From Planctomycetaceae bacterium (GTDB taxonomy: Bacteria > Planctomycetota > Phycisphaerae > Phycisphaerales > Zrk34), in the NCBI GenBank assembly GCA_002685935.1, contig NYZD01000120.1, positions 1-34,206 of the forward strand: a stretch of 34,206 bases of DNA, read 5' to 3'. Position numbers and translations under genes: made by a program. Under the pieces are notes generated by a model. It was not told the DNA's origin and searched no databases. It saw nothing but the letters and a program-made list of their open reading frames with translations. Shown here in pieces: positions 13,942 to 22,962 of this stretch (positions are counted from its first letter, which is position 1; each line of letters begins with the position of its first letter).

Positions 13942-15261
13942 CTAATCCTGCAACTCCCAGATCACCACCATCACATTGCCCAGCCCAAGATAGTTCGCGT
14001 GCGGCAGCAATAGCGTGTCGTTCCAGTTTTCCGGCGCGTCTTCCTTCTTCAGGTCGGTCCACGTATACGTCGTGTAATTGTAGATCGCCGTCATCAGTCG
14101 CCCGTCGGCCAGCCGCACCGTCCGCGGGTTGAACAGCTTGAATCCCTGCGGACAGCGAAACAGAATGTACCGCCCGTCCCAGTCCCACGTGCGGCCGTGG
14201 TCTTCGCTGACCACCGCCTCCACGCCGCCGTAGATTCGACGATCCAGCTCGCCGATCCGCGCCGCGTGCGTCATCACCAGCCGTCCATCCGGCAGCACGG
14301 TGATGTTGGCATGCACACGACCAAACCGGAAAAACGCCTGCGGCTCCGCCCACGTCCTGCCGTTATCCGACGACCACGACGTCACAATGTTCCGCCACCC
14401 ATCGTTCTCCGATGGGATACTCGGATCCTTATGACGCAGCGCCACAACCAAATCCCCGTTCTGTGCGCGGACCACCGAACACTCCGACGTGCACCACTCG
14501 GCCGGCAAAAAGACCGGCTCATCCCAGGTGTTCTTGTCCGCGTGGTACGTTCGCAGGATCGTCTGCCCGTTCAGCCGTCCGTCGGGATACTCGTCTCCGC
14601 TGGCCGGTTCTCGCGGTATCGCCAGACCAAACGTCAGGTCCGCACCCTCGACCCAGGGCTGATGACACAGGTCGCCCGCCCCGTCCCGCCCATCATCGAG
14701 CAGCGGTTGAGGGATGATCTCGCCCCAGGTGTGACCCCGATCATCGCTGCGGCAGTACGCCCAGATGCACTTGCCATCGTCCGGCGAGTACGTCAATCCC
14801 TTGTCCTTCTCAACGAGATACACCCCCCGCGCGATGATCGTGTCCGCACCCAGCGCCGGCACCGCCACCGGCGCGCAATACACGAACGGCGTCCGCTTCG
14901 CCGGCTGATCCCACGCCTCGCACGACGGGTCTCCCGTGAACAACAGACTGTCGAACTTGCTTCGATCCGCGAAGTCCCGATGCCGCATCGACGCGGTGAA
15001 CGTGATCACCGGCACGCCGTCGCTCATCACGTCGAGCCCCTGCGATTCGGGGAAGTTCGCCAGAAACCGGTACGTCAACCCCTCAAAATAATGGTGCTTC
15101 CCGCTCGCGGCGTTCTTGCGGATCGGATGCGGATAGACCTCCGTGATCAGCCGCTTGTGCCGGTGCGTCCGCAGCGCATCCTGGTGCACGAACGCGCTCG
15201 CCTCATGCGCATCGAGCGTCTGCAGCCTGTCGTTCACCTCGCCGCCGTAGAGTATTGACAT
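13942..15261 (-). CDS. Sialidase-like BNR/Asp-box protein
   Basis: A 439-residue protein without a signal peptide. At least three Asp-box motifs (S-x-D-x-G-x-T-W) are visible: SDDRGHTW, SSDNGRTW and SEDHGRTW; they mark the blades of a six-bladed beta-propeller. The family includes sialidases but also many proteins acting on other glycans, and the FRIP/arginine-triad residues of true sialidases cannot be assigned here. AAAGGG lies 7 bases before the ATG at 15261. It is convergent with the SGNH gene and divergent from the chimeric gene at 15399. A paralogue lies at 31496-32599. Its probable role is in glycan breakdown; the exact substrate is unknown. Confidence 0.75.
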   Translation of the reverse strand: MSILYGGEVNDRLQTLDAHEASAFVHQDALRTHRHKRLITEVYPHPIRKNAASGKHHYFEGLTYRFLANFPESQGLDVMSDGVPVITFTASMRHRDFADRSKFDSLLFTGDPSCEAWDQPAKRTPFVYCAPVAVPALGADTIIARGVYLVEKDKGLTYSPDDGKCIWAYCRSDDRGHTWGEIIPQPLLDDGRDGAGDLCHQPWVEGADLTFGLAIPREPASGDEYPDGRLNGQTILRTYHADKNTWDEPVFLPAEWCTSECSVVRAQNGDLVVALRHKDPSIPSENDGWRNIVTSWSSDNGRTWAEPQAFFRFGRVHANITVLPDGRLVMTHAARIGELDRRIYGGVEAVVSEDHGRTWDWDGRYILFRCPQGFKLFNPRTVRLADGRLMTAIYNYTTYTWTDLKKEDAPENWNDTLLLPHANYLGLGNVMVVIWELQD

Positions 15262-15311
15262 CAGATGGCCCTTTCATCCATGGTCCCGGTACGGGGTCGG
15301 GGTCGCCTTGA

Positions 15312-15317
15312 ATTGTA
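15312..15317 (-). promoter_or_regulatory. Possible -10 element of the sialidase-like gene
   Basis: On the minus strand TACAAT (five of six matches to TATAAT) lies about 50 bases upstream of the sialidase-like start in the divergent intergenic region. No good -35 hexamer is found at 16-18 bases, so this is weak. Confidence 0.25.
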
Positions 15318-15398
15318 TCCCAAACGAATCTTCCGCCCGGCCACATCTCCGCGCGGTGGGCTGGTCAATTTCACTTAGGATACCTCAAGGACCATAGT

Positions 15399-16181
15399 GT
15401 GAAGGCTAACCATATCGTGAAGATTCGCTTGATCCCAAAACGACGGTGGCTTCGCGTGACGCTCGTGGTCATCGCGATTCTGATTGGCCCGTCCGTCTTT
15501 GGCCGCGCCGCGAGCCTGTGGCGACGTGTCATCATTCACACCACCGCCCATGTCATGACCCAGCCCGCGCCGGCCACGCAACTGCGCATCGCGTCCTACA
15601 ACATCGCGCACGGCCGAGGCCTCGCCGAATCAAACTGGGACGGCGGCAATAGCGCGGATCGACTCACCCGTCTCGACCACGTGTACGAACATGCCGACGT
15701 GGTCAACACCAGCGATCGCGTGCTGCTCGCCGGGCCGGTGTCGTGTTATCTCGACGATCGTTTCGTCGGCGGGGATCAGGTGCCGACCGTTGCCATCGGC
15801 GAACAGTTCACGCTGGGTCTCGGCATCGACTCCACCATGCGCACCGCGCGCAAGCTGATCGAGAAATCCGAGAATATCCAGGGCGGCAACCGCGTCGTCA
15901 CCTATGCCTATGTGCTGTCAGTGACCAACTTCAGCGATGATGCCGCGCCCGTGCGGCTCATCGATCGCATCCCTCAGGCCGACCCGCCGCAACTCAAAGT
16001 CACGCTCACCGCCACCGACCCGCCGCTGAGTAAAGATGAAAAGTATCAAAAAGAGCAGCGTCCCCAGGGCCTGCTGCGCTGGGACCTGGTCGCACCGGCT
16101 AACGCGGTGAGCCTCGATGCCCAACTCGTCGAATACGAGTACACGCTGGAATACGCCAAGGACCGCGTGCTGAGACAATAA
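15399..16181 (+). CDS. Chimeric protein: EEP nuclease/phosphatase N-terminus joined to a DUF4139 C-terminus
   Basis: A 260-residue product made of two unrelated family pieces. Residues 16-40 form a membrane anchor or signal segment. Residues 62-93 (LRIASYNIAHGRGLAESNWDG, then RLTRLD) are the start of an endonuclease/exonuclease/phosphatase domain, including its Asn metal/substrate motif; the rest of that domain, about 200 residues with the catalytic His, Asp and Glu, is missing. From residue 94 to 258 the sequence follows DUF4139, the C-terminal half of MucoidyInhibitor-A-like proteins (VVNTSDRVLLAGPVSCYLDDRFVG, YVLSVTNFSDDAAPVRLIDRIP, PQGLLRWDL, EYEYTLEYAKD). The N-terminal parts of DUF4139 proteins are absent. 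The junction is near base 15675. This looks like an internal deletion that fused two genes in frame. The EEP half must be inactive. GTG 15399 has AAGGA 8 bases upstream. Confidence 0.7.
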   Translation: MKANHIVKIRLIPKRRWLRVTLVVIAILIGPSVFGRAASLWRRVIIHTTAHVMTQPAPATQLRIASYNIAHGRGLAESNWDGGNSADRLTRLDHVYEHADVVNTSDRVLLAGPVSCYLDDRFVGGDQVPTVAIGEQFTLGLGIDSTMRTARKLIEKSENIQGGNRVVTYAYVLSVTNFSDDAAPVRLIDRIPQADPPQLKVTLTATDPPLSKDEKYQKEQRPQGLLRWDLVAPANAVSLDAQLVEYEYTLEYAKDRVLRQ

Positions 16182-16554
16182 GCCGTCGCCACATCACGGC
16201 AGACCGCATTCTCCGGGCCGCGTTGGAATCTGTCGTCTGAAGCGCGACGGCGCGCGATCACCCGTCCGTGCCGACCGAAGACCGGTCCGTCCGCAGAGGA
16301 TGCCAGAGCGCCAATGACCCGGCCGATCCGAGCGGTCGGGGCTGGCACGCGTCGCCGTGATCCCCGAAACCATCGGCCTTTCGGCCGCCTCCCACGTCCC
16401 CTGGGTCGCCGGCAACCCCAATGCGCCCCGGGGCACCGCGAATCCGTTGGATTTCAGCCCCGTTTCGCCGATAAAGTGTACACATCGCTCGGGATCGATC
16501 GGCGTGCCCGTATGCCTCGCCCGCCCCGACGCCCGACGACTGGAAGGACCTCGC
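16182..16554 (+). other. Intergenic region before the arylsulfotransferase-like gene
   Basis: About 370 bases without a supportable gene. The frame of the following gene remains open to 16357, but this part has no family content and no Shine-Dalgarno. Possible promoter elements are noted separately at 16447-16475, next to a GTGTACAC palindrome (16476-16483). No RNA gene was recognised. Confidence 0.4.
16447..16475 (+). promoter_or_regulatory. Possible promoter of the arylsulfotransferase-like gene
   Basis: TTGGAT (16447-16452), a 17-base spacer and GATAAA (16470-16475) give a weak sigma-70-like pair about 80 bases before the ATG at 16555. A palindrome GTGTACAC immediately follows at 16476-16483 and could be an operator. 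Confidence 0.3.
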
Positions 16555-17901
16555 ATGCATCAACAGCTTCGTCGCGCAGCCGGCTTCATGTGGATTCGGT
16601 ACTGCGCGCTGATCGCCTGCTGCCTGATCGTCGGCGTCTGCTACGGATATCTGGCCCATAAGAATCAATGGTTCCCTTACGGCCTGCGCGCTGCGCTCAC
16701 CCCAGACGCCGACACCACCGACACCACGACCGACAACAGCAACGAAGGTGATCTCGAAAAACTGCTGTCGCTGCCCTATCTCTCGGGATGGAAGGCCGCG
16801 CCCGAAAGCTCCGGCGTGGTCGTGCACGACCGATCCATCGCCCACCCCGGCCTCAACCTGTATTCCTCCGGCGAGCGCCCGTTTGTCATGTTGATGGACA
16901 TGGCCGGCCAACCGCTGCACACCTGGGCGTACGATTTCTCGAAGGTCTGGCCCGACCGCGAGATCGGTTGGGACGATCCGGGATACATCCGACGCTTCCA
17001 CCTGTTCGACAACGGCGACCTGCTGGCCATCTTCGATCCCCGCGATCAGAGATACAACGAACAGCACGTCATCATCAAACTCGATAGCCAAAGTCGCGAA
17101 CTGTGGTCCTACTCAGGCGGCGTCCACCACGACCTTCAGGTACTCGACGACGGATCCATCCTCCTGCTCACCCGCCAACTCAATTCCGTCGAAGGCGTCC
17201 GCGACGGCAAGGAAGTGCTCGAAGATTCCATCACGATCCTCAGTGCCGATGGCGATCCCATCAAACATGTCTCCGTGCTCAAAGCGATCCGTGATTCCAA
17301 CTACGCATCTCTGCTCGCCCACGCGCCCGACATGCGCGACATCCTGCACACCAACACCGTGGAGATGATCGACGATCGACTCGCGTCCCGCTCGCCCCTG
17401 TTCAAGTCCGGCCAGGTGTTGGTCAGCGTGCTAAACCTCAACACGATCGCCGTGATCGATATGGACACGCAAAAGGTAATCTGGGCCATGACCGGCATGT
17501 GGAAATGGCAACACCAACCCACCGTGGTCGACAACGGCAACATGCTGCTGTTCGATAACGTCGGCCACTTCGGGCAATCCAAGGTCATCGAGTTCGATCC
17601 GATCACTCAGGAGGTGCTGTGGCTCCACGGCGGCAGCGAAGCCAATCCGTTCTTCTCTCACAACTGCGGGTCGAACCAGCGGCTGCCCAACGGCAACACG
17701 CTGATCACCGAATCCACCCAGGGCCGCGCCTTTGAACTCACGCCCGACAGCGATATCGTCTGGGAGTTTCTCAATCCCCGACGCACCGGCGAGTCGAACA
17801 AGAAGATCGCCGTGATCCCCGAACTCGTGCGCCTGCCCGCCGATCTGGATATCACTTGGGCCGCCGCAAATCAGCCGGCGTCTGACGCCGCGAAACCGTA
17901 A
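16555..17901 (+). CDS. Membrane-anchored arylsulfotransferase (ASST)-like beta-propeller protein
   Basis: A 448-residue protein with one N-terminal transmembrane segment (about residues 13-33) and a short Asp/Thr-rich linker, then a six-bladed propeller-like domain. Three repeats carry a His followed by a D/N-G-x-x-L-L blade end: HHDLQVLDDGSILLL (from about residue 191), HQPTVVDNGNMLLF and SHNCGSNQRLPNGNTLI. This is the pattern of arylsulfotransferases and related PQQ-like proteins. In true ASST a His takes up the sulfate; which His would do so here is not assigned, and the family contains many proteins of unknown activity. GGAAGGA lies 7 bases before ATG 16555. The ArnT-like glycosyltransferase starts 24 bases downstream, so both are probably made together and act at the membrane surface, perhaps in modifying a surface glycan. 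Confidence 0.65.
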   Translation: MHQQLRRAAGFMWIRYCALIACCLIVGVCYGYLAHKNQWFPYGLRAALTPDADTTDTTTDNSNEGDLEKLLSLPYLSGWKAAPESSGVVVHDRSIAHPGLNLYSSGERPFVMLMDMAGQPLHTWAYDFSKVWPDREIGWDDPGYIRRFHLFDNGDLLAIFDPRDQRYNEQHVIIKLDSQSRELWSYSGGVHHDLQVLDDGSILLLTRQLNSVEGVRDGKEVLEDSITILSADGDPIKHVSVLKAIRDSNYASLLAHAPDMRDILHTNTVEMIDDRLASRSPLFKSGQVLVSVLNLNTIAVIDMDTQKVIWAMTGMWKWQHQPTVVDNGNMLLFDNVGHFGQSKVIEFDPITQEVLWLHGGSEANPFFSHNCGSNQRLPNGNTLITESTQGRAFELTPDSDIVWEFLNPRRTGESNKKIAVIPELVRLPADLDITWAAANQPASDAAKP

Positions 17902-21834: not shown

Positions 21835-21909
21835 CACAATCTGCCCCGGCGACCGCCGCCCACGGCCAACTTGGCAGCGGACCCGACCCCCGGGATAATC
21901 AGCCGCACC

Positions 21910-22915
21910 ATGATTAATCGACGTGAATTTCTAAGAACCATGGCCGCGATGACCGGCGGCATCATGGCCACACCGGCGCTCCTGGCCGAAGAGGCCGCGA
22001 CCACCCAGCCCAAGCCACCGCGCGATCGGCTCGGAGAACTATTGCCCCTGCGAAAACTGGGCGCCACCAAAGCAAGAGTCACCATGCTCGGCGTCGGCGG
22101 CTGGCACATCGGCAACCTCAAGGAACGCGACGTCCAGCGCACCATCGAGAAAGCCCTCGAAGGCGGCGTTCGCTTCTTCGACACCGCCGAGTCCTACCAG
22201 GAAGGCGTCAGCGAGAAACGCTACGGCCAACTGCTCGTCCCCAAGTACCGCGATGTCAGTTTCATCATGTCCAAGTCCGCCGCACGCGATGCCAAGACCG
22301 CCATCGCGCATCTCGAAGGCACGCTACGCCGACTCAACACCGACCACTTGGACCTGTGGCAGATCCACAGCGTCCAAAGCCCCGACGACACCGACAAGCG
22401 ACTCGAAGCCGGCGTCCTCGATGTATTCCTCAAAGCCAAACAGCAGGGCAAGGTGCGCTTCATCGGTTTCACCGGACACAGATCACCCGAGGCCCACGTG
22501 CGCATGCTCGAGGGCACCCGAAGTGCTGCAGACCTGCCAGATGCCCATCAACGTGCTGGACCCCAGCTACAACAGTTTCATCAAGAAAGTCTTGCCCACG
22601 CTGACCAAGCGCAAGGTGGGCGTGCTCGCGATGAAAGCCTTGTCCAACGGCCGCTTCTTCACGAAACCCGATCCCGTCGATGGCCGACCCGACGAGCCGC
22701 TCATCCCCACTCGCATCACCACCGCCGAGGCCCTGCACTTTGTCTGGTCGCTGCCGGTCAGCGTGCTCATCAGCGGCGCCGACAACACCAAACAGCTCCA
22801 GCAGAACATCGAGACCGCCCGGAGTTTCACCAAGCTCAACGATCAGCAGCGCGAGCACCTCGTGGACAAGGTCGCCGACCTGTCCCACAAGCGCGTGGAA
22901 TATTACAAAGCCTGA
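21910..22915 (+). pseudogene. Tat-exported aldo/keto reductase, broken by a +1 frameshift
   Basis: The 5' part encodes MINRREFLRTMAAMTGG, a twin-arginine signal with the RREFLR motif, then a reductase with the AKR tetrad Asp 91, Tyr 96, Lys 122 and His 153 (FFDTAESY, IMSKSAARD, LWQIHSV). At about base 22517 the reading frame changes: the frame that began at 21910 degenerates, while the next frame continues with EVLQTCQMPINVLDPSYNSF and runs to the TGA at 22913-22915. Removing one C from the CCC run at 22517-22519 restores a continuous protein of about 334 residues, LEGTEVLQTC across the repaired point. So this is either a recent pseudogene or a one-base sequencing/assembly error. If intact, it would be a periplasmic oxidoreductase of the same family as the gene at 11086, but in a different branch. 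Confidence 0.85.
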
Positions 22916-22940
22916 TGCGTAACGCAGCGCAACACCGTCT

Positions 22941-22958
22941 CGCCGGGCAGGCCCGGCG
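22941..22958. terminator. Strong hairpin between convergent reductase and nrfA genes
   Basis: CGCCGGGC (22941-22948) and GCCCGGCG (22951-22958) form a perfect eight-base-pair stem; the outer AGCGC/GCGCT (22926-22930 and 22956-22960) offers an alternative pairing. It lies between the stop codons of two convergent genes and fits a bidirectional terminator, although there is no T-run on either side. Confidence 0.5.
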
Positions 22959-22962
22959 CTAG

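Follow-up and report, generated by a model that had tools for sequence, protein, structure and literature searches.

Gene-fusing deletions that produce chimeric genes are a known class of event, and the locus described here brings together pieces of two gene families. The first is the endonuclease/exonuclease/phosphatase (EEP) superfamily (PF03372), whose relatives in the order are proteins of about 330–350 aa; the closest of them to our sequence, a protein of about 338 aa in genome G292, is covered end to end by the Exo_endo_phos profile (1–225 of 225, E 9e-21). EEP relatives carry the motifs N-E (in VVVLNEVDF), G-D-L-N/G-D-x-N and S-D-H, to which we assign catalytic and metal-binding roles on general knowledge of the family. 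The second is the MuiA family (TIGR02231; DUF4139, PF13598), with proteins mostly of about 560–700 aa, one of which (in G358) has both DUF4140, the N-terminal domain of the family, and a nearly complete DUF4139. Our literature search on DUF4139 turned up two incidental mentions, and on chimeric genes it returned nothing useful.

The window analysed here, a 34,206-nucleotide stretch of a planctomycete draft genome (contig NYZD01000120.1), contains one reading frame that joins these two unrelated genes in frame, as our comparison confirmed. Like the chimeric genes that arise from gene-fusing deletions, it has a single junction, two co-oriented truncated genes and an in-frame product; unlike them, it has no ancestral adjacency that could be found in relatives, and its junction is taken from the assembly. 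The first-pass annotation had read the frame as an EEP N-terminus running into the DUF4139 C-terminal half of a MuiA-like protein, with both domains truncated near base 15675. This reading is borne out: searched separately, the first half leads to EEP proteins and the second to DUF4139/MuiA proteins, and the break was mapped to the junction zone given in Table 1. One continuous known family across the frame is ruled out, since no Pfam or NCBIfam profile covers its full length.

Table 1. Features of the chimeric frame and its immediate neighbours (positions in the window).
Feature	Position	Strand	Basis or remark
Chimeric open reading frame	15399..16181	+	260 codons, GTG to TAA
Putative alternative GTG start	15417..15419	+	M-K-I-R-L start of the G292 EEP relative
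5' piece, EEP-family N-terminal ~93 residues	15399..15677	+	Identity to EEP N-termini of relatives
Junction zone, codons L-D-H-V	15672..15683	+	Codon-level comparison with both families
3' piece, MuiA-family/DUF4139 C-terminal ~165 residues	15681..16178	+	TIGR02231, PF13598, relatives
Left neighbour, BNR-repeat (sialidase-like) protein	13942..15261	-	PF13088
Right neighbour, arylsulfotransferase (ASST) family protein	16546..17901	+	PF14269 and PF05935

Residues 1–93 correspond to about the first quarter of an EEP-family protein that is anchored in the membrane; they include the motif S-Y-N-I-A-H-G-R-G and a hydrophobic stretch that looks transmembrane. This identity was established via relatives. 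Pfam and NCBIfam recognise the second part only: Exo_endo_phos matches neither residues 1–93 nor the whole frame, and residues 1–93 by themselves give zero Pfam matches. The piece is 56% identical to the G292 protein and, overall, 44–57% identical to EEP N-termini in G292, G045, G371, G266, and G276, with weaker likeness elsewhere, and the best alignments stop at query residue 92–104. What the frame shares with the superfamily is the anchor and the first motif, Y-N-I-A-H-G-R-G; what it lacks is about 245 of the ~338 residues, including most catalytic residues, the other three motifs all lying past the break and only the first Y-N motif being kept. To judge from its residues, the product most likely has no nuclease activity. 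Because the best EEP relative begins with M-K-I-R-L at the second GTG, we prefer that codon to the first, and the real start may lie there. Elsewhere, the same genome encodes one ordinary EEP protein above the cut-off.

The second part of the frame matches the C-terminal half of the DUF4139 profile alone (100–204 of 205, E 3.3e-11), and this is enough to bring the score (43.7 bits) above the gathering cut-off of 31.8. On TIGR02231, residues 95–256 align with positions 366–521 of 524, the last ~30% of the family model, at 84.3 bits; this is under the whole-protein cut-off of 112.6, as would follow from loss of the remaining MuiA sequence. The best alignments to DUF4139 relatives begin at query residue 92–95; identity reaches 50%, to relatives mostly of about 600–670 aa, and the conserved MuiA motifs G-G-N, L-R-W-D and L-S-x-D are intact. 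The last ~165 residues of the frame are thus the C-terminal end of the family, whereas about the first 420–500 residues, including the first half of DUF4139 and the whole of DUF4140 (for which Pfam finds no match in the frame), are absent. Since the MuiA parent has lost roughly three quarters of its length, its function would not be expected in the product. Two further DUF4139 proteins are encoded on other contigs of the same genome. In five genomes of family f3, DUF4139 genes stand in tandem about 1.8 kb apart (G015 C14, locus L009; G137 C41; G314 C25; G325 C13; G396 C22), which suggests paired MuiA-type proteins.

At the junction both gene families break off at the same residue. The frame is EEP-like through R-L-D (15669–15677), where relatives go on with R/D/E-I-A-x-L, and MuiA-like from V-Y (15681 onward), where relatives mostly read L-T-x-x-V-Y; in the codon-level comparison the intervening H codon (15678–15680) can be assigned to neither parent. 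Provided that each parent had its family's conserved residues, the bases common to both at the join would number at most about 9–11. No repeats able to drive recombination lie on the junction (searched from 15200 to 16400).

Two other genes of the window deserve mention. An aldo/keto reductase gene (21871–22962, + strand) is apparently frameshifted near 22500: Pfam recognises its first half only (2–142 of 291), and an overlapping frame at 22253–22915, which Pfam does not confirm, resembles the C-terminal half by eye. This is either a natural pseudogene or an indel error of the draft. Further upstream, a phage-type terminase large subunit gene (800–2338, + strand; phrog_2, E 4e-22; no Pfam match) sits amid metabolic genes.

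Two partly overlapping sets were searched, one of 400 genomes from the order and one of 298 from the class, and one half or the other was matched in 175 and 60 genomes, respectively. Among the matches listed, none spans both halves: EEP matches start near residue 3–60, the strongest ending at 92–104, and strong DUF4139 matches start at 90–95. We rejected a designed or recurrent fusion, there being no second example among the matches listed in order or class. Degenerate 26-base and peptide patterns likewise found no independent copy of the junction in the genome contigs, a set from which records near the window's genome were possibly left out. No solved structure is convincingly related by sequence.

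The missing halves were sought in the organism's own genome, a draft of 198 contigs that is 79% complete, with two queries each for the EEP 3' part and the MuiA 5' part. The best hits in this draft (E 0.24 and 0.18) are not credible, yet identical or similar queries recover both missing parts in every control genome; because the draft is incomplete and fragmented, we treat the absence as suggestive. A partial EEP gene opening contig C155 could have been the missing 3' part, but EEP relatives do not match it and we ruled it out. The first-pass annotation had also proposed looking in relatives for the missing parts as adjacent intact genes, and this check came out negative. In none of the five relatives in which we saw both genes do the two stand side by side: they lie on different contigs in G007, G029, G276, and G292, and about 3.5 Mb apart on the single contig of G060 (or about 1.1 Mb, counted in the other direction, if that contig is circular). 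All five are distant from the window's genome, so the lack of adjacency lowers the claim of a fusing deletion without excluding it. Around the junction and its flanks no neighbours are shared with any relative's locus examined, and since gene order there is unconserved, synteny could not decide the origin.

We believe that, in this lineage, one deletion or rearrangement probably brought together the start of a membrane-anchored EEP gene and the end of one encoding a MuiA/DUF4139 protein. A gene-fusing deletion would be the simplest fit to the sequence, because it accounts at once for the loss of both inner parts and for the single junction; the earlier reading, a gene-fusing deletion or an assembly join, stands, although the adjacency looked for in relatives was not found. 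The two genes, in the same orientation, would have been joined by one event that removed the remainder of both, at least ~2 kb as estimated from the sizes of relatives' genes, with the reading frame kept by chance, so that a protein of 254–260 residues could still be made. This product would consist of a membrane anchor, an EEP-fold stub and a MuiA-type C-terminal stretch of ~165 residues, and would be a remnant in which both parental activities are most likely lost. The comparisons show the two origins, the truncations, the junction, the absence of the missing halves from the draft and the uniform composition; from these we infer a deletion as the event, a join that is real in the DNA and a product without function. 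Because the five relatives are distant and gene order is unconserved, the deletion or rearrangement may have been a larger one, or the two genes may have been neighbours in this genus in particular.

The main competitor to a fusing deletion, which we consider distinctly less likely but take seriously, is an assembly or library artefact, in which far-apart sequences of one genome were put together in the contig and the organism has both genes intact. The fragmented, incomplete state of the genome speaks for it, as do the distance between the two genes in relatives, the lack, on either flank, of gene order shared with any relative examined and the apparent frameshift in the nearby aldo/keto reductase gene, which may reflect local sequence quality. 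Against it, the bases that the parents would have shared at the join are fewer than the 21 or more that k-mer assemblers usually require, the remaining gene ends do not turn up on any other part of the assembly, although contig ends are where they would often be left by a misjoin, and the chance of an in-frame join is just 1 in 3. That the contig is instead a chimera of two organisms binned together seems to us very improbable. The best relatives of the two pieces do come from two separate families within the order (EEP: G292, f3; DUF4139: G358 and G055, f2), but both gene families are patchy throughout the order, and mixed organisms are unlikely because both contig arms are alike in composition and match the remainder of the genome: the tetranucleotide correlation between the arms (r 0.946) is at the top of the range between other stretches of the same genome (0.80–0.95), their GC contents are 0.637 and 0.630, and no relative tested is as close to either arm as the other arm is.

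There is also the reading, improbable in our view, that this is a working new protein, in which the EEP membrane anchor displays the MuiA-type C-terminal part and selection has kept the fusion. The frame is intact across 260 codons, third-position GC is alike in the two parts (0.76 and 0.77) and the motifs of the MuiA part are undamaged; a recent accident, however, would appear equally undamaged, and the condition of the two parts agrees equally with a recent event and with selection. In addition, DUF4139 is cut within the domain, the listed matches in order and class give no parallel case, and a single-sequence structure model is uninformative (mean pLDDT 34).

We regard the fusion as an accident of an ordinary kind, and would find it of more than low interest only if reads and sister genomes showed it to be real and kept. 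Should the join be one of assembly, what it reveals is a flaw in the draft, and either way knowledge of both families is unchanged. If the join is real, this would be a clean, undegraded bacterial chimeric gene caught soon after the fusing event, and also a caution, in that automatic annotation may call the frame simply a DUF4139 protein.
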